A stretch of DNA of 64,000 nucleotides from Avibacterium avium (GTDB lineage Bacteria; Pseudomonadota; Gammaproteobacteria; Enterobacterales; Pasteurellaceae). Positions 23,751 to 34,704 of the stretch are shown one piece after another. Numbering within the stretch: the first letter of the stretch is position 1; each line of letters begins with the position of its first letter. Under the pieces are notes generated by a model, which did not search any database, had not been told where the DNA came from, and saw only the letters and a list, made by a program, of their open reading frames with translations. The translations under genes were made by a program, and so were the position numbers. The DNA lies in NCBI RefSeq assembly GCF_900454535.1, contig NZ_UGSP01000001.1, positions 538,501 through 602,500 on the forward strand, given 5' to 3'.

Positions 23751-23845
23751 GGAAGATAGGCGTTTCCGGTGAAACGGCAGGACTTCAAATCCTGTTAAGG
23801 TTGCCAGCAATCTTGGGTGGGTTCGACTCCCATTGTCTTCCGCCA
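23751..23845 (+). tRNA. selC: tRNA-Sec (anticodon TCA)
   Basis: A 95-base selenocysteine tRNA with encoded CCA end, the same length as E. coli selC. The long acceptor stem pairs GGAAGATA with TGTCTTCC (one G-T pair). The anticodon loop reads CTTCAAA with TCA at 23785-23787, and a long variable arm follows. The T loop GGTTCGACTCC is present. It reads away from selAB. The foreign-looking helicase-modification island starts within 100 bases of its 3' end. Confidence 0.96.
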
Positions 23846-23940
23846 CTTTTCAGCATATAAAATCAAATCAATAAATTATCTTTTTTTCCGTATCTTAGTT
23901 GTTATAATTAATCTTAATTCTTATTCTTTTGGTATATAAA

Positions 23941-26811
23941 ATGCAATTGACTCCTCATCAATCCCAATATATAGCTTGGCAGCTAAGTAAGCAAACGGCT
24001 TCTAATAATGTTGATGATTTTGGCGCAACTTTAGTTGATGCCAAAATTGATATTAATCCACATCAAATTGATGCGGCAATTTTTGCTTGCCAAAATCCCT
24101 TGTCTCGCGGTGTTTTGCTGGCAGATGAAGTTGGATTGGGTAAAACCATTGAAGCGGGTTTGGTCATTGCTCAACGTTTTGCGGAACGAAAAAGAAAAAT
24201 ATTAATTATTACACCAGCAAATTTGCGTAAGCAATGGCATCAAGAACTACAAGAAAAGTTTGGTATTGAATGTATTATATTAGAAACTAAAAGTTACAAT
24301 GAATTAAAAAATCAAGGAAAAAAGCCGTTTGAACAAAATATTCCTGTTATCTGTTCTTATCAATTTGCAAAAAGTAAATATAAAGATCTTGAAAGTATTC
24401 CTTGGGATTTAGCAATTATTGACGAGGCCCATCGCTTACGTAATGTTTACCAGAAAAAGAATGTACTGAGTAATACCTTAAAGAAGGCTTTAAATCATGT
24501 TCGATCAAAGGTTTTACTTACAGCAACACCTTTACAGAATTCAATTTTGGAGCTTTATGGGCTTTCTAGCATTATCGATGAGCAAATATTTGGTGATTTA
24601 GAAAGTTTTAAAAATAAATTTGCGAATAGGAGTGGAACCAATTTTGAACAATTGAAAAAACGTATTCAACGTTTCTGTCAAAGAACTTTGCGTAGAGATG
24701 TTGCAACTTATGTACCTTATACTAAACGGATTCCTATGGTGCAAGAGTTTACGCCTAGTCTAAATGAACAGGCTTTTGCTGATTTAGTGAGAGAGTATTT
24801 ACGACGAGATGAAAGCTATGCCATTCCCACTAGACAAAAGCATCTTATTCGTATGGTGTTGTGGAAACAATTAGCCTCTAGTCCAAGAGCAATAGCAGGA
24901 GCTTTTCGTACCATTATAAAAAGATTAGAAAATTCATTGGGTGACTTTGATGAGCCAGAAGATATAGATGGGTTTATTGATGATATAAGTGGTGATTATG
25001 AAACTTTTGATGAGACTGCCGAGGAGTGGGAAGATGAACAAGAAAGTAATTCTCCACTAAAAGCTCAAAATATTATTCAAGAGGAAATTGAAGAATTAAG
25101 ACGTTACATTGAGTTAGCAGAACAAATTGATAAAGATGAAAAAGGGAAAGCATTATTAGCTAGCTTAGAAACTGCCTTTATAAAACTATCTGAATTAAAT
25201 GCGCCTCAAAAAGCTATTATTTTTACAGAATCTAAGAGAACCCAAGAATATCTCTTTGAGTTGTTGAAAAATAGCCCTTATGGTGGTGAAAATGGGGACG
25301 AGATAGTTCTGTTTAATGGCGATAATAATAGTAAGGAAGCAAGGAAAATTTACCAAGACTGGCTTAAAAAGCATCAGGGATCGGATAAGATTACGGGATC
25401 GAAAACTGCAGATACCCGTGCAGCATTAGTTGAATATTTTAAAGAAAAAGCAACCATTATGATTGCAACAGAAGCAGGAAGCGAAGGGATAAACTTGCAA
25501 TTCTGTTCATTAATTGTCAATTATGATTTGCCTTGGAATCCACAGCGAGTAGAACAACGTATTGGACGCTGCCATCGTTATGGACAGGAATATGATGTTG
25601 TCGTTGTCAATTTTATCGACAAAACGAATGAAGCAGATCGCCGAGTTTATGAACTTTTAGCTCAAAAATTTCAATTATTTGATGGTGTTTTTGGTGCTAG
25701 TGATGAAATTTTGGGGCGCATAGGGTCTGGTATTGATATTGAAAAGCGCATTGTTGAGATATATCAGACTTGCCGCACTAAAGCAGAAATTCAGACGGCC
25801 TTTGATAAACTTCAAAATGAAAATGCAGAGATGATAGATGAAAAAATGCGTGAAACTAAACAAAAACTGCTCGAACATTTTGATGAAGAAGTGCAGAAAC
25901 GTCTGCAAGGTATTAGTGATCAAACAAATGACATCAAAAATAAATATATCAGTTTATTGATGCAGCTCACTCAAAGTGAACTAGCAAATGATGCAGAGTT
26001 TGATAGCGAGGGCTTCACGCTCAAACAGCTACCAGACTATCTAATAGGGAAAACGGATTTACTTGGACGATACGTTTTACCTGATAGTCAAGGGGCTGAG
26101 GCTTACACTTATCGTATAAGTCATCCACTCGCACAAGCAGTAATTGAACAGGCTAGAAATCGTCAATGTCCACCAGCTAAACTAAAATTTGATTACGATG
26201 CTTATGGTAAGAAAGTGAGTACGCTTGAATCTTATCGAGGTAAAAAGGGGCAGCTTACAGTGCACTTACTCACGTTACAATCCACTGTTCAAACAGAGCA
26301 ACAGCTGATTGTTAGTGCGTGTACAGAAAATGGTGAGCTTTTGCAAGACGATGATCCAGAAAAGCTGCTGAAATTACCAGCTCAATCCATAGTGTTACCT
26401 GGGATTATATCGTTACCAGTATTTGAGTCTGATTTAAAAATACGAGGAGAAAACTGTCAGAAAATTGCTAAAAATAGAAATTTAAACTATTTTAATCAAG
26501 AAACAATTAAGCTTGATGGTTGGGCAGAAGATTTAAAAAACAATCTTGGACGCGAGCTAGAAAGTCTTGATAAACAAATTCGAGATGCTGAAAGGCAATC
26601 TTCCGAAGCTGATGATTTAGAAGAAAAAATTGATTTAGAAGAAAAAATTGGCAATCTAAAACGGGAACGTAAGAGACAACGTCGTTTGATAGAGTATAAA
26701 GAAGAAGAGATTGACGAAGAGCGTGATCACTTGAAAAAGAAAATGCGTGAGAGCTTAAACCAAAAAGCAGAGGAGCGAGAATTATTTGTAATCGAGTGGG
26801 AAATAATATAG
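23941..26811 (+). CDS. SNF2/RapA-type DEAD/DEAH helicase, first gene of accessory island
   Basis: A superfamily 2 ATPase of 956 residues expected to move on double-stranded DNA. Motif I GLGKT has Lys68; motif II is DEAH at residues 161-164 (IIDEAHRLRN); LLTATPLQN is motif III; the second RecA domain holds EAGSEGINLQF (motif V) and QRIGRCHRYGQ (motif VI, 540-549). A charged coiled-coil-like tail rich in Glu, Lys and Arg spans about 855-945. This type occurs in defence loci with DNA methyltransferases; the closest described relatives by layout are DrmD-like and RapA-like helicases. ATG 23941 is preferred over TTG 23929. A full 12-base Neisseria uptake sequence lies inside at 25790. The exact role is inferred. 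Confidence 0.85.
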   Translation: MQLTPHQSQYIAWQLSKQTASNNVDDFGATLVDAKIDINPHQIDAAIFACQNPLSRGVLLADEVGLGKTIEAGLVIAQRFAERKRKILIITPANLRKQWHQELQEKFGIECIILETKSYNELKNQGKKPFEQNIPVICSYQFAKSKYKDLESIPWDLAIIDEAHRLRNVYQKKNVLSNTLKKALNHVRSKVLLTATPLQNSILELYGLSSIIDEQIFGDLESFKNKFANRSGTNFEQLKKRIQRFCQRTLRRDVATYVPYTKRIPMVQEFTPSLNEQAFADLVREYLRRDESYAIPTRQKHLIRMVLWKQLASSPRAIAGAFRTIIKRLENSLGDFDEPEDIDGFIDDISGDYETFDETAEEWEDEQESNSPLKAQNIIQEEIEELRRYIELAEQIDKDEKGKALLASLETAFIKLSELNAPQKAIIFTESKRTQEYLFELLKNSPYGGENGDEIVLFNGDNNSKEARKIYQDWLKKHQGSDKITGSKTADTRAALVEYFKEKATIMIATEAGSEGINLQFCSLIVNYDLPWNPQRVEQRIGRCHRYGQEYDVVVVNFIDKTNEADRRVYELLAQKFQLFDGVFGASDEILGRIGSGIDIEKRIVEIYQTCRTKAEIQTAFDKLQNENAEMIDEKMRETKQKLLEHFDEEVQKRLQGISDQTNDIKNKYISLLMQLTQSELANDAEFDSEGFTLKQLPDYLIGKTDLLGRYVLPDSQGAEAYTYRISHPLAQAVIEQARNRQCPPAKLKFDYDAYGKKVSTLESYRGKKGQLTVHLLTLQSTVQTEQQLIVSACTENGELLQDDDPEKLLKLPAQSIVLPGIISLPVFESDLKIRGENCQKIAKNRNLNYFNQETIKLDGWAEDLKNNLGRELESLDKQIRDAERQSSEADDLEEKIDLEEKIGNLKRERKRQRRLIEYKEEEIDEERDHLKKKMRESLNQKAEERELFVIEWEII
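25790..25801 (-). repeat. Neisseria-type DNA uptake sequence (AG dialect), exact 12-mer
   Basis: TTCAGACGGCCT is the reverse complement of AGGCCGTCTGAA, the AG-DUS used by several Neisseria species. It is foreign to the Haemophilus-type uptake system and lies inside the helicase gene. Confidence 0.8.
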
Positions 26812-26869
26812 AACTGTCTACGATAGGTAGTGTTTATAAAAATTAAAGTAATTAAGTTGTCTTCATATT

Positions 26870-27760
26870 ATGAAAGTTTACCAATCTTCTGTATCTACAG
26901 ATAATATACCCGTTTTGGGGCATTTTAGTACCGTTCCAGAAATTTGCGCGATGCGAATATCTAGTATGTTCTCTAATAAAAATAGAGCTGTTATATCGAA
27001 AAATAAGAAAAACACTTTATTAGTTGTTAATATTTTTTCTAGTATGGGACGGGAAATGAGACTTCAAGATTATTTTATTGAATTTTCCCATTTTGCTAAT
27101 GAGTTTCTGATTCAAGAATATATTTTAGACGTAAAGAAACCATTAAAGTTGATTGATTGCTGGCAAGATGATCCTATTGGGAGCGTTGGCATTAAAGCAA
27201 TTGATGCAGGGCAAATAGATAAGACTTCTATTGATGTATTGAAGAAAGACTTATTGAAATATTCTCCATATTTGGGATTGGCTCTTCCACCTGTTTTTCC
27301 ATCTAATCAGATGTCTAATCATATTTTAGACAAAAGGCAATCAGACAAAGTTTTTCATCAAGAACTTTCAAAAAGAATAAATCGTTCAAAACAGCTTGGT
27401 GAAGATTTTGAGAAAATGAGAACATTAGAGTTAGTCTGGTTAGAAAGCACATTTTTGATTAAAGAATGGGCAGAAAAACTTGGTTACGATAGTTTCTTTT
27501 ATTCAAATAGTGCTGAAGGAAATGGACAATCTTGCTTTATGCCTTTGAAAGAAGAACAAATAAAAAAGACTGGGAAATATTTTTCTTTTATTATTGATAA
27601 GTATCAGAGAAATATTCCTAAATTAACAAAAGATGTAGACAATAATGCTTATAAAGAAAATAGATATTTTTTGTGGGGAGATTGCGATGCCCCTATGAAA
27701 TATTGGAAATGTAAAACGAAAATTTTATCCAAATTGCGTTCATATTTTTTCTTTTGGTGA
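26870..27760 (+). CDS. Unrecognised 296-residue protein with ADP-ribosyltransferase-like motif layout
   Basis: No family is certain. Soluble, no signal peptide. The pattern resembles ART domains of phage and plasmid polyvalent proteins: an opening VYQSS (usual form YHGT) with GHFST-VPEICAMR at 17-29 (usual HFGT..AA..R), KKPLKLIDCW in the middle (usual NPLRL-D-G-W), and near the end GYDSFFYSNSAEGNGQS (205-221) followed by EEQIKKTG (228-235), which recalls GYDGIVYRN.EG..S and PEQIKS. The first catalytic histidine of the YHGT motif is replaced by Gln. The gene is AT-rich, starts 58 bases after the helicase and ends 27 bases before the mod start, so it sits within the operon. It could instead be an unrelated operon-specific protein. 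Confidence 0.45.
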   Translation: MKVYQSSVSTDNIPVLGHFSTVPEICAMRISSMFSNKNRAVISKNKKNTLLVVNIFSSMGREMRLQDYFIEFSHFANEFLIQEYILDVKKPLKLIDCWQDDPIGSVGIKAIDAGQIDKTSIDVLKKDLLKYSPYLGLALPPVFPSNQMSNHILDKRQSDKVFHQELSKRINRSKQLGEDFEKMRTLELVWLESTFLIKEWAEKLGYDSFFYSNSAEGNGQSCFMPLKEEQIKKTGKYFSFIIDKYQRNIPKLTKDVDNNAYKENRYFLWGDCDAPMKYWKCKTKILSKLRSYFFFW

Positions 27761-28222
27761 TTGAAATTTAAACAAGGAAACAAAACCATGCACCATCTCC
27801 CCCAACTTACCCAAAAGCTCCAAGAAATCTTCCAAACTGACCGTGCGGATTTGGATTTTGGTATTTACCGCATCTTAAACAGCCGAGCGGAAGAGATTAA
27901 CCAATACCTTACTCACACGCTGCCGCAAAAAGTACGGCAAGCCTTTCACCAAGCCAATCAAGGGCAAAACGAGTTAGCAGAAGCCGAACAGCAAGCCCAA
28001 GCCCAAAAAGCAGGCAGCCACAGCGAGGCAGTGATTTTTTCCCATCTCTATACCTTCTTTTCCCGCTACTATGAGGAAGGCTGATTTCATCAGCCAACGC
28101 CGTTACAAAGGCGACACCTATGCCATTCCCTACAGCGGCGAAGAAGTGCTATTACATTGGGCAAACAAAGACCAGTACTACACCAAATCAGGCGAAAACT
28201 TTAGCAATTACCGTTTTAAACT

Positions 28223-28234
28223 TTCAGACGGCCG
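28223..28234 (-). repeat. Neisseria-type DNA uptake sequence, exact 10-mer core
   Basis: TTCAGACGGC (28223-28232) is the reverse complement of the classical neisserial GCCGTCTGAA. Extended to 12 bases it matches the AG dialect at 11 positions. It lies in the GC-rich 5' part of mod. Confidence 0.8.
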
Positions 28235-28556
28235 AGAAGTGTTTTTCCGTCTTATCGCCGCCGACACCGCCAAAGACAACCGCAAAGATAATGATAATAA
28301 ACGTTTATTTGCGTTGGCAGAGCCAAAAACGATTGAAAAACAAGATGAAGACGGCGAGACTTACCAAGAACAAATAGAAACACTGGTGCAAAGCGAAGAC
28401 GGCAAGACCTTAACCATTCATTTTGAATACCGTCCTGCCGACAAAAAAGACAAACAAGACCAAGAAAACGCCCGCACCATCGCCGCCTTAAAAGCACAAA
28501 TTTCCGACAGCTGGGCTGCCGTTTGGGAAAAGTCCCCGACCGACAAAAATCCCGAC

Positions 28557-28565
28557 CGCACTTTG
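28557..28565 (-). repeat. Only exact Haemophilus-type uptake sequence inside the island
   Basis: ACCGCACTT is the reverse complement of AAGTGCGGT. It is the single exact copy I find between about 23.5 and 34.8 kb, whereas comparable lengths of the protein-coding chromosome outside the ribosomal operon carry many. Confidence 0.75.
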
Positions 28566-30678
28566 CTGGAAAAACACCTTAGCGATTACACCCAAAAAAA
28601 TACCGCCGACTATTTCATCCACAAAGATTTAGGCGGATTCTTACGCCGTGAGCTGGATTTCTACATCAAAAACGAAGTGATGCACCTCGACAACATCCAG
28701 CACGCCGACAGCTTTGAACAAATCAAAAACAGCCTGCGGCAAATCCAAGTCTTGCGCGAAATTGCCCACGACATCATCACCTTTTTGGCACAACTGGAAG
28801 ATTTCCAAAAGAAACTTTGGCTGAAGAAAAAATTTGTTGCCCAAACGCATTACCTCATCACACTGGATAAAATTCCAGCCGAAATGCTGCCTGAAACCCT
28901 TGCCAATCCTGCTCAACAAGTACAATGGAAAAATTTATTTGATATCAATGAGTTAGAGCGATTTTGGGGTAGCCTTGATGAACAAAATCTAAAAAAATTC
29001 CAACAAAATCAACCGCATTTGGTGGTGGACACCTCCCTTTATCCGCCCCGCTATCAACAAAAACTGCTCACCTTGCTCACTGAAGCAGTGGATTTAGACG
29101 CAAACACAGACGGCGTTTTAATTCATTCTGATAATTTCCAAGCCTTAAACCTTTTGCAAGCCCGTTATCGGGAACAGGTGAAATGTATCTATATTGATCC
29201 GCCTTTTAATTTAGAAAAAAATGGAGATTTTCTATATAAAACTGAATACAAAGATTCATCATGGTTAACTTTATTAGATAATAGACTGATTTTGGCAAAA
29301 AAATTATTGTCAAGTAACGGCTTTTTATATTTGAGATGCGATCATAATGGAAATTATATTATCAAAAATATCCTTAATAATATTTTTGATAAAAGTAACT
29401 TTGAGGGGGAGATCTTAGTTAAGAGAATTAGAAAAAATATAACTTCACAAGGGAGAATATCACTGCCGCTATCTAATGATTCACTTTTTCTTTATAGAAA
29501 TAGTGATAATGCTTATTTTGAAAACCCTTATTTGAAATTAAAAGAAAAAAGAGAATCTTATTGGCGAAGAATGGATGATTCTGCTGGGTTTAGAAATCCG
29601 CCTGAAAGGAATATATTTGGTGCTATATTCAAACCTTATAAATATGATGCTCATTTTAAATTCTCACAAAAATCTATTGAAGAATTAATAAAAGAAAATA
29701 GAGTGAGATTGGTATGTAAAAATTGTAAGTACACCCATTATTCAGGAGAATGGAATGCTTGTCCTTCATGTGGAAAAAAAGATGCAACCCCTCAATATTT
29801 AGTATTGGAAAGTGATAAGCAAGTATTAGATACTAATTGGATGGATATTTCTGGATATGCTCATACCACAGGTTTTTCAACTGAAAATGCTGAAGTACTG
29901 CTAGATAGAGCAATAGACGTTACTAGCACAGAAAATAATCTTGTAATGGATTTTTTTCTAGGAAGTGGGACTACAGTAATATCCGCTTTAAAAAATAATA
30001 GAAAATGGATTGGTATTGAGCAAAGTGAATCTTTGGAATCTATTGTTGTCCCAAGAATATATAGAAAGCTTGTTGAATATGAAAAAACACAAATCGTCAA
30101 AGTATTAAAACTGGAAAGTTATGAAGACACTTTAAATAATATTGTTTTAAAAGGGCAGGACGATTTTTTAAAAACCTTACCTGAAAACGTGCGCGAAGAG
30201 TATTTATTGCGTTATTTGCTCGACACCGAAAGCAAAGCGGCTTTATTAAACAGCGATGATTTTCGCCATCCCTTTGATTACCGCCTGAATATCGCCACTG
30301 ATTCCGCAGGGGCGTATCAATCCACCGTCATTGATTTAATCGAAACCTTTAATTATCTTTTGGGCATCCGTGTGCAGGGCATTACCGATGAACGGGAAAA
30401 ACGCGCTTATGTGACGGTAGAAGGCATTTTGCCCAATGGCGAACGGGCGTTGATTGTTTGGCGTGATGTGGAAAAAATGGGCTATGCCGAAGTGGCAGAA
30501 TTTTTTGATAAACACAACATTAATCCCCACAGCGAACAATATGATGTGGTTTATCTAAACGGCGACCACGACATGGCGAACCGTTGGCAAAACGAAGATA
30601 ACAGCGAAAGCCAATTGAATTTGCGTGCCATTGAACCCGAGTTTTTAAATCGTATGTTTACGGAAAAGGGGGAATAAG

Positions 30679-33600
30679 ATGGCAAAGCAAGCAAAAATCC
30701 ACCGCTCTTTTCACGAGCATTTGATTTTAAACCGTTGGGTGCTATCTTTATTGGGGCAGGGCAGTTTTACCGATTTAAAAAGTTTTTTAAATCATGATCG
30801 CTTAATTGGCTTAAATGAAGACGGTCAAACCCATTTTTTTGAGGCGCTTCAGCTTGGGGCTTTATTTCCGTTTTCTGAAAAAATCAGCGAGGAAGATGTT
30901 CGCCGTTATGATTTAAATATTGTCCGCCATTGGCAGCAAATCACCGCTAAACGCAATCAAGACAGCGGCCATCAATTGCAGATGAAATATTTCCAATATC
31001 TCTCTTTGTTATTTACCGAGATTTATTTGGATTGGTTTTTTAACCGTCAAGCAGAAATGTTGGCAGGTTTAAATGAAACGCTGGCAAATTATCAAAAAGA
31101 AAAGGGGCATTTGGATTTATCCGATTATCAGACGGCAGATTTAAATAAAATTGCTTTTTGGAATGCCACTGGTTCGGGCAAAACCTTATTAATGCACGTC
31201 AATATTTTGCAATATCAGCATTATTGTCCTGAAAAAATAGATCAGATTATTTTATTAACGCCCAATGAAGGATTAAGCCACCAGCATTTGCAAGAGTTTT
31301 TAAATTCAGGTTTTCAGGCTACTTTTTTAATAAAAATAATCAAAGTGGCGATTTATTAAATTCAGTACAAGTCATTGACATAAATAAATTGGCAGATAAA
31401 CACGGTGATAAGACGGTGGCAGTGGAAAGCCTAGCAGGGCGAAATCTGGTACTGGTGGACGAAGGGCATCGCGGCACCTCTGGTGATACGTGGTTCAAAC
31501 GCCGTGAGCAGTTAATCGGAGATGGTTTTGCTTTTGAATATTCAGCGACTTTTGGGCAGGCAGTGAGTAAGGGAAAAACCGTTAAAGAGCAAACAGAAGA
31601 ATGGCAAAAGAAAAAAGCCCATCTGTTCTTTGGCAAAAAAAGCCTAAAAGGGCTGGATGAGGCTCAATTAGCACAATTGCGGCCTGATGTATTGAACTTG
31701 CAGACGATTCGCCAATCAGCGATGTTGGAAGTCTATGCCAAAGCGGTGTTATTTGATTATTCCTACAAATATTTTTATGCAGACGGTTATGGCAAAGAAA
31801 GCCAAATTCTGAATTTACGCGATGAGGATTATGCACCGCACGGCGATATGTATTTAACTGCCTGTTTGCTGGTGTTTTATCAGCAATTGTATTTGTTTGA
31901 CCGTCATCAAAAAGCTATCAGTGCTTTTCAGATTGAAAAACCGCTGTGGGTGTTTGTGGGTAACAAAGTGGCAGATGACGACAGCGATATTTTAAAAATT
32001 TTGAGATTCTTGGCGCATTTTTTAAATAACCGTGCCGTGATTGAAAACCGCTTGAAGCAATTATTAAGCGATACCGCTGTGTTAACCAATAAAGACGGCG
32101 CAAATATTTTTGCAGGGCAATTTACGCCGTTAATGGGCTTTTTGGGCAAAGAAAGCGCGCTGTATGACGATATTTTGCAAAAAGTATTTAACACTGCCAT
32201 TGATGGAAGATTGCAAGTTACTTTGCTAAAAAACAAAGCTGCGGAAGGTGAGTTGGCTCTGTCGATAGGCAATGCTAAGCCGTTTGGCGTGATCAATATA
32301 GGTGATGCTAATAGTTTTGCAAAAACAGCGGAAAAAGAAAGTGATTTTGACACTGTGCAGGACGATTTTTTGTCGTCTTTATTTCAGGAAATAAACCGAA
32401 AAGATAGTCACATTCATTTGTTGATCGGCTCTAAAAAATTTACTGAGGGCTGGTCAAGCTGGCGTGTTTCTACTTTAGGTTTGCTCAATATGGGCAGAGG
32501 TGAGGGAAGTCAGATTATCCAATTATTTGGCCGCGGTGTACGATTAAAAGGGCAGGGCTATTCTCTTAAACGTAGCCGAAAAGACGAGCGTCCAGAAGGC
32601 GTATTTTTAGAAAAACTGGAGACGCTCAATATCTTTGGTATTGCCGCAAATTATATGGAAGAATTTAAAAAATACCTCAAAGAAGAAGGTATTACACCAC
32701 CAGATGAAATGCTGACGGTAGATTTTAAAGTGAAGCCCAATTTGCCTGCTACCAAACTCAAAACTTTGCGCCTTAAAGATGGTTACAAAGACAATCAAAA
32801 AAATGGCTTTAAACGCAAGGAAAAAGAGATTATATTTTTTGAAATGCCTGAGAAATATCAAGGAAAGGGTAAGCGCTTACAAGTGGATTTGGATTTGTAT
32901 CCTAAAATTGATATGGCGGGAACAGTCGGCGAACGTACCCCATTGGATAAGCGTGAGAAAAATACGCTGGATAAGAGTTTATTTGCCTTTTTTGATTGGG
33001 AGGCGATTTATCTGGCGCTATGGGAATACAAATGGCAACGCTCTTGGTGGAATTTACAACTTAATAAAACCGTCATTCAGAAATTCGCTCAGACGGACGG
33101 TTGGTATCAGTTATGGATACCCAAAGACCGACTCACCGTCCGAACCTTTGCCGATATTCACTATCAGCAAGGGATTTTGATTGAGCTGCTGAAACTGTAT
33201 ATGCAGCGATTCTATCAAAACCTTAAAGCTATGTATGAAAGTGAGTTTTATGAAACCGCGTGGGTTGATACAGATTATCCTGCTTTGCAAAATAGCTACC
33301 AATTCCGTATTGAGAATCATGATGACGGCAGGGAATATGCGCAAAAACTCTTGCAATTAAGAGATTTTATTGAGTCAGGACGGTTAAAAGAAGTATTGGG
33401 CTGGCAGGCGGCAAACATCACCGCTATTTGCTTTGAACCGCATCTTTATTATCCCATCATGACGTTGGAAAATGCCGAAGCCTTACCACTGACCATGAAG
33501 CCAATGGATATGAACGAAGCGAGTGAAATCCGTTTTGTACAGGATTTGCAAGCGGCGCATGAAGACGGTCGCTTAAAAAACTGGATTGGCGATAAGGATT

Positions 33601-33962
33601 TGTATTTGCTGCGCAATGCCGCCAATAAAAAGAAAGGGCTGGGTTTTGCGCTGGCGGGCAATTTTTATCCTGACTTTTTGCTTTGGCTGGTGGATCGGGA
33701 AACGGGCAAGCAATGGCTAAGTTTTATCGACCCTAAAGGCATTTTGCATATGGGCATTAACGATCCTAAATTTGGCTTGGCGGAGGAGGTTAAAAATCTG
33801 CAGAAGAAAAATAGCTTAGATATTCAATTGAATGCGTTTATTCTTTCCATCACTCGGCGAGAAGATTTATTGCATACGGATATAGAAGATTATGCCGAGA
33901 AGAATATTCTGTTTATGCAGGATGGGGATTATTTGCAGGAGATGTTTGAGAGAATATTGTAA
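30679..33962 (+). pseudogene. Type III-like restriction helicase-nuclease (Res), interrupted by a frameshift
   Basis: Res subunits combine an SF2 translocase with a PD-(D/E)xK nuclease and cut DNA together with Mod. Visible parts: Walker A ATGSGKTLLMHV (near 31170), DEGH box VDEGHRG (near 31460), motif VI-like GRGVRLKGQG (near 32530) and a C-terminal nuclease core YPDF (33666-33677) followed by FIDPKG. A T6 run at 31323-31328 breaks the frame: the first piece ends at 31359 and the second is open from 31389. One more T would give a continuous protein of 1094 residues joined as ATFF-NKNNQSGDLL. It starts one base after the mod stop. Loss of the helicase continuity should abolish cleavage unless corrected by slippage. 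Confidence 0.82.
31128..31136 (-). repeat. Partial Neisseria-type uptake sequence (9 of 10 core bases)
   Basis: TCAGACGGC is nine bases of the reverse complement of GCCGTCTGAA. It lies in the 5' part of res. An 8-base fragment (TCAGACGG) also occurs at 33089-33096. Confidence 0.55.
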
Positions 33963-34224: not shown

Positions 34225-34704
34225 TTACTTTTTCTCATACCAAATCTGATTAATATATAAAGTTACCCAGCCTGAGGGGGTGCTTACTTTTACTTCATCA
34301 TCAACTTCTTTGCCAATTAAGGCGCGAGCTACGGGGCTATCGATGGAGATCCAATTTTTGGCTGGATCGAATTCATCACAGCCCACAATGCGGTATTGAT
34401 GTTCTTCGCCCTGTTCATTTTCTAAGGCGACCCAAGCGCCAAAAAAGACTTTGCTCTCCTGTCTTGGGTGGTAATCAACAATTTGCAGCACCTCTAAACG
34501 CTTGGTTAAGAAACGAACGCGGCGATCAATCTCGCGCAGGCGGCGTTTACCATAAATATATTCTGCATTTTCACTTCTATCCCCCAATGCTGCCGCATCA
34601 GATACTGCTTGAGTTACTTTTGGACGCTCTTCTTTCCATAAAAACTTTAGCTCTTGATCAAGGGTATTCCAGCCATCTCGGGTGATGTAATTTGATTTTG
34701 TCAT
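34225..34704 (-). CDS. greB: Transcription elongation factor GreB
   Basis: GreB enters the RNA polymerase secondary channel and stimulates cleavage of backtracked RNA. The N-terminal coiled coil (about 1-77) has the acidic tip motif LGDRSENAEY with the catalytic Asp and Glu. The C-terminal FKBP-like domain contains KVFFGAWVALEN and the conserved ISIDSPVARALIGKEVDD. The sequence follows GreB (LKFLWKEERP, LREIDRRVRFLTKRLE) rather than GreA. 159 residues, normal length. Confidence 0.95.
   Translation of the reverse strand: MTKSNYITRDGWNTLDQELKFLWKEERPKVTQAVSDAAALGDRSENAEYIYGKRRLREIDRRVRFLTKRLEVLQIVDYHPRQESKVFFGAWVALENEQGEEHQYRIVGCDEFDPAKNWISIDSPVARALIGKEVDDEVKVSTPSGWVTLYINQIWYEKK

Follow-up and report, generated by a model that had tools for sequence, protein, structure and literature searches.

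Do the four genes that follow one another on the same strand between positions 23941 and 33962 of a 64,000-nucleotide stretch of the Avibacterium avium genome (contig NZ_UGSP01000001.1, positions 538,501 to 602,500; hereafter the window) form a single defence system, or a restriction-modification (R-M) system that has taken up other genes? In order, they encode a SNF2/RapA-type translocase, a 296-residue protein that we call gene 2, a DNA methyltransferase (Mod) and a restriction enzyme (Res), separated by 58, 27 and 1 bp, exactly as a previous sequence-only reading had described. That reading took all four as one system, which comparison with other genomes does not support: the conserved core consists of three genes, coding for a DrmD/RapA-like SNF2 protein, a long type III Mod and a Res, and the remaining one is an accessory, replaceable by other genes and missing from most relatives. 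Its suggestion of a system extending beyond two-gene type III R-M is supported, the conserved partner of Mod and Res being the SNF2 motor.

Res homologues occur in 15 of 140 Pasteurellaceae genomes, including that of the window, and SNF2 is adjacent in 12 of the 14 other loci, in two gene orders. Ten Pasteurellaceae loci have the order Mod-Res-SNF2, with gaps of 5-46 bp before SNF2, and SNF2-Mod gaps measure 23-79 bp in several loci; L032 has a further gene, in what we call the slot, between SNF2 and Mod (SNF2-slot-Mod-Res), and L033 has SNF2-slot-Res without Mod. No SNF2 gene was found within the stretches fetched for L031 and L034. In Escherichia coli, matches to the locus occur in 186 of 5,426 genomes, and the two loci that we read show SNF2-Mod-Res with a 23-bp SNF2-Mod gap and no slot gene, one of them adjoining a tRNA-Leu gene. 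Among plasmids, 54 records contain the SNF2 gene; in all 11 that were read, from different genera, a methyltransferase and a DEAD/DEAH Res gene lie near it, with Mod and Res of the window type in four. A phylum sample of 398 genomes yielded five other genomes with Res: SNF2 stands beside Mod in L069, L072 and L073, in L070 a stretch matching the C-terminus of SNF2 immediately precedes Mod, and L071 ends inside Mod at a contig end. Altogether, SNF2 adjacency spans Proteobacteria, Deinococcota, Planctomycetota and Bacteroidota, and the plasmids that bear the trio come from four phyla. The co-occurrence of the four genes proposed from the sequence was confirmed for SNF2, Mod and Res, found together widely, and not for gene 2, which accompanies Mod-Res in only one other genome, as a decayed copy without SNF2. 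Most E. coli copies cover about 84% of L025, with flanks at 97%; the difference probably corresponds to one swapped internal stretch, likely the Mod recognition domain.

The slot lies between SNF2 and Mod or between Mod and Res, and many loci have nothing there. The case for gene 2 as an accessory rests mainly on three backbones whose SNF2 proteins are 56-62% identical and which nevertheless carry three different contents, namely gene 2 in the window, an OLD-type ATPase in L032 and, in place of Mod in L033, a C5 methyltransferase, a PLD-like open reading frame (ORF) and Z1; gene 2 therefore does not belong to the core. Elsewhere the slot is occupied by AbiD (L027), HEC-01A and HEC-01B (L030), AbiU/AIPR with VapC (L048), SIR2_2 and HerA (L050), PDC-S68 (L053), Abi_2 (L036), RhuM (L069), AAA_21 with a small second ORF (L070), PLD (L054), DUF262 (L051), a small ORF (L052) or, in L034 where SNF2 is missing, Ppl and a gene 2 relic. 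We also observed that on the Planctomycetes plasmid of L050 (14861-17641) SIR2_2 and then HerA, a whole two-gene defence unit, are placed between SNF2 and the methyltransferase, and that the C5 cytosine methyltransferase, PLD-like ORF and Z1-domain protein of L033 (9702-13752) stand between SNF2 and a Res that is short at its N-terminus.

Gene 2 (26870-27760; all features with coordinates in the window lie on the plus strand) encodes a 296-amino acid (aa) protein of a rare family. It matched no Pfam, PADLOC or NCBIfam family, Pfam remaining empty even up to an E-value of 10. DUF4391 was thereby rejected, in agreement with the view taken from the sequence; the accompanying statement that DUF4391 proteins occupy this position in related operons found no counterpart, either as a Pfam match of the slot proteins that were scanned or as a name in the annotated loci. 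The family of gene 2 was detected in 2 of 140 Pasteurellaceae and in 1 of 369 genomes of the class. Its relatives comprise a degenerate copy in G138, directly preceding Mod and beside a Ppl-type ATPase; a two-ORF copy beside an integrase on a Teredinibacter plasmid; a partial copy in G404; a copy after an SF2 (superfamily 2) helicase gene in Glaciecola KUL10; further copies in G1024 and G1085; and an intact 288-aa protein, L062, found by a DNA pattern in viral contigs, which is the closest intact relative by identity and is encoded beside tail genes in a 44-kb contig. A phage collection contained no match, and protein and alignment scans of the viral contigs gave nothing new. In Glaciecola, TnsA/TnsB-like ORFs recognized by eye had no Pfam hit and we make no claim of Tn7-like cargo. 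A possible membrane partner occurs in G1085, where a 197-aa ORF containing hydrophobic stretches (L068, 8565-9158) comes after gene 2.

Three blocks are conserved in the family, HFGT/HLGT..AA..R, NPLRL.D.W.DDPIGS and GYDSF.YSN..EG.GE, the last of them resembling ADP-ribosyltransferase (ART)-like proteins. The gene 2 profile (A10) was aligned by hhalign with an ART-like family (A11), made up of L063 and four plasmid proteins found through it, at 90.9% and a score of 47.7, against a maximum of 23.9 in 200 column shuffles. The match to L063 by BLAST and hhalign is partly circular, because this sequence had been fetched with a pattern from the last conserved block; when L063 was left out, the score was 38.1 against 19.6 for the shuffles. 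One A11 member matches PF18760 (ART-PolyVal) at 3.9e-4. On these grounds we lean slightly towards gene 2 being ADP-ribosyltransferase-like. Several observations pull the other way: the assignment depends on about 34 C-terminal columns, the N-terminal half of the profile taken separately scores 20.0, marginally above the highest shuffle (19.7), and the window protein has GQ after EGNG where its relatives have GE. A search of L063 with an N-terminal gene 2 hidden Markov model was not significant, and two AlphaFold models, with mean pLDDT (predicted local distance difference test) values of only 39 and 47, are too low in confidence for the fold to be read. L063 (1231-1662) and L074-L077 form a family, close to ART-PolyVal, of small proteins from plasmids together with a domain from a phage contig, and show the motifs YHxT, HFGT and EGGGDSY.

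Gene 2 is mostly encoded away from R-M genes, in a prophage, on a plasmid and in marine gammaproteobacterial chromosomes, and may therefore be a passenger. Its presence in the operon would then reflect the chance insertion of a phage-derived or anti-host gene with no role in defence, a possibility that we take seriously without thinking it probable. It agrees with the rarity of the family and with the tail genes next to L062; it sits poorly with the second occurrence directly before Mod, beside the Ppl-type ATPase of G138, and with the known defence genes that usually fill the slot in other loci.

A more general doubt concerns the SNF2 gene as well. Were the operon a type III R-M system of the ordinary long form, its SNF2 gene and gene 2 would be defence-island neighbours without any part in restriction. 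Mod and Res are indeed covered nearly end to end by the PADLOC type III methyltransferase and restriction enzyme models, the search for an already named system having produced a match for these parts only. Mod is encoded by two ORFs, an N-terminal fragment of 98 aa (27788-28084; MTase_III 7.4e-23) and a main fragment of 868 aa (28071-30677; Pfam N6_N4_Mtase 1.8e-28, MTase_III 7.4e-215). The main fragment carries a beta-class N6/N4 methylase domain and, within the target-recognition region, a C4 zinc-ribbon-like insert; it matches Mod subunits in the PDB (6k0w 5e-15, EcoP15I 3.9e-13); in its translation DPPF precedes FxGxG, that is, motif IV comes before motif I, as in the beta class. Res likewise consists of an N-terminal fragment with the Walker A motif (30679-31359; REase_III 6.9e-64) and a C-terminal fragment (31389-33962; REase_III 6e-287, profile positions 261-1124 of 1154), in whose translation DEGH, helicase motif VI and a PD...DxK nuclease motif can be read. 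The REase_III model thus spans both fragments, and the SF2 ATPase and PD-(D/E)xK parts are present in a broken gene. A single, weak PDB match of Res to MutL (0.0072) was taken as chance.

The missing SNF2 in the stretches read of L031 and L034, together with the tendency of tRNA insertion sites to gather defence genes, would also suit a mere neighbourhood. Two further points count against a functional link between SNF2 and the R-M genes: in 7 of the 11 plasmids SNF2 is accompanied by Mod and Res of another, shorter subfamily, and no paper in the open literature that we searched joins SNF2 to Mod and Res of the window type. No description of the trio or of the slot was found in this literature either, a search whose scope excluded REBASE and most subscription papers. 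We nonetheless consider ordinary type III R-M rather unlikely, given the adjacency of SNF2 in 12 of 14 relatives, at the short distances noted above, and its recurrence in four phyla. The best reading of the sequences is that the operon represents a variant of type III R-M that has a second motor and is distinct from DISARM.

The copy of this variant in Avibacterium avium seems to have been inactivated. The large beta-class Mod announced from the sequence was correct in class and motifs, but its length of about 960 residues exists only across a frame break, since Mod is split into two ORFs; the type III-like Res with a PD-(D/E)xK nuclease was similarly right in its motifs and is divided between two ORFs. 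An extra T at 28082 breaks Mod, the window reading GGCTGAT where all five aligned relatives have GGC-GAT. In Res, the frame is lost at a run of six T (31323-31328), one base shorter than in L031 and L032; a stop codon closes it at 31357-31359 and the coding sequence continues in a different frame, which parts Walker A from the DEGH motif. The intact Mod and Res frames needed for active type III R-M are consequently not present in the window, and with both genes frameshifted restriction is most likely off; the reading frames of SNF2 and gene 2 are still open. Against complete inactivation, an ATG at 28071 overlaps the Mod stop, and re-initiation may partly bridge the break. A functional operon, in which both breaks were artefacts of sequencing or one position of a reversible switch, seems unlikely to us. 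The T6 run in Res is an indel-prone place and the mod genes of relatives do bear switch tracts, but the single T that breaks Mod is not part of a repeat, and no frame is interrupted in the nearby selA, selB, greB or sigma-factor-like ORFs, all of full length, which argues against frequent sequencing errors.

The SNF2 protein (23941-26811, or from an alternative TTG start at 23929; 956-960 aa) is DrmD-like. Its description as SNF2/RapA-type, like the 296-residue size of its neighbour, was upheld: Pfam identifies SNF2-rel_dom (6.5e-36) and Helicase_C (4e-21), PADLOC gives DrmD (2.7e-196) and the PDB search RapA (6.6e-38). That the operon is a DISARM variant, with gene 2 standing in for other Drm parts beside a DrmD-like SNF2 and a methyltransferase, is highly improbable even with DrmD as the top family match in PADLOC and NCBIfam, because the score of 663.4 bits against DISARM_DrmD_b falls under the cut-off of 950, no ORF for a drmA helicase, drmB (DUF1998) or drmC exists between selAB and greB, and Mod and Res are type III; membership in DISARM was ruled out by score and gene content.

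The operon starts directly after a tRNA-Sec gene (selC, 23751-23845, ARAGORN), its left boundary and the probable integration site in the genus, and is followed by the ORF 34225-34704, identified by eye as greB. Its G+C content is 35-40%, and that of the rest of the window mostly 41-47%. Past tRNA-Sec in G024, G027 and G026, the first ORF begins with MARKTQQLTD and is tyrosine integrase-like (by eye; no family library was run), and in G028 and G023 EnvC-like and PGAM-like ORFs, apparently chromosomal (also by eye), directly follow it. These arrangements suggest that selC serves as an insertion site in the genus Avibacterium, and the restriction operon would have been gained horizontally and inserted beside it. 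Direct repeats of at least 9 bases were not found between the two operon ends, and comparison with an empty site from the greB side met relatives without tRNA-Sec near greB.

Phase variation may be a further property of the system in Pasteurellaceae. All 12 relatives with a readable mod have exactly one repeat tract in or at this gene, either (ACAGC)n or a similar pentanucleotide at its start (L035 16000, L036 7448, L037 9703, L038 5278, L042 9712 and L043 9168) or a run of 8-12 G/C inside it (L031 11635, L032 11351, L034 9543, L040 8485, L041 7960 and L044 11154). Outside mod, the same loci contain 3 tracts in 183 kb, from which 0.6 would be expected in mod; the corresponding Poisson figure, 3e-12, is after the fact because the tracts had been seen before the pattern was defined. 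Known phase-variable type III mod genes exist in Pasteurellaceae, according to PMC13076061, and the switch tracts of the relatives link the system to phase-variable methylation. The window has only GGGG (28966-28969) where its two closest relatives, L031 and L032, carry a G11 switch tract, and between 23901 and 34000 it contains no run of at least 8 G/C or 10 A/T and no 4-7-base unit repeated four times.

How the parts might work together can be proposed from their families. In intact relatives, Mod would recognize a site through its variable target-recognition domain and methylate host DNA, and Mod-Res would scan and cut unmethylated foreign DNA by type III logic, cleavage being predicted from family knowledge. 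The SNF2 protein, a fixed extra motor, may be a double-stranded DNA translocase that does not unwind its substrate, like its RapA/DrmD relatives, and by resemblance to DrmD probably clears protein roadblocks or aids the loading or movement of Mod-Res. The slot gene could be an exchangeable second-line effector, acting once restriction fails or is inhibited, following the logic of PrrC and EcoprrI; HEPN genes in R-M operons, proposed as back-up effectors (PMC3710099, PMC12707154), offer a model for this role, and ART-like enzymes also occur in some R-M neighbourhoods (PMC3710099). Taken as a whole, we consider the window operon probably to be an inactivated, mobile, accessory-armed type III variant. 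Our fuller proposal is tentative: a SNF2-Mod-Res chassis in which SNF2 works in restriction, slot effectors answer Mod-Res failure, gene 2 founds a new ART-type effector family and, in Pasteurellaceae, mod phase variation gates the whole. If true, a two-tier defence, restriction and then cell arrest, could be tested directly by combining one chassis with its many natural inserts. Gene 2 adds a rare family for which Pfam has no model.

Among known systems, the operon is closest to type III R-M of the EcoP15I kind, with which it shares a beta-class Mod placed before an SF2-helicase Res with a C-terminal PD-(D/E)xK motif; it differs in the length of Mod (about 960 aa, counted across the frame break, versus 644 in the 4zcf chain), in the zinc-ribbon-like insert of its recognition region and in the fixed SNF2 gene. 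DISARM provides, with DrmD, the nearest named defence family for the SNF2 protein, which scores under the NCBIfam cut-off in an operon devoid of drmA, drmB and drmC. Phasevarion type III mod genes resemble those of the 12 assessable Pasteurellaceae relatives in their single pentanucleotide or poly-G/C tract, unlike the window copy, which is broken elsewhere and without a tract; the SNF2 linkage goes unmentioned in the passages of PMC13076061 that we read. Gene 2 shares the C-terminal motif GYDxxxYxNxxEGxGxxSY with ART-PolyVal (PF18760) and the HFGT-type plasmid family A11, although it has no Pfam match itself and much of its length is unmatched. Finally, R-M operons with embedded toxins, such as PrrC/EcoprrI and the HEPN-linked ones (PMC3710099), likewise hold a second-line gene inside the operon, whereas in backbones of the window type many unrelated kinds of effector alternate at one position.

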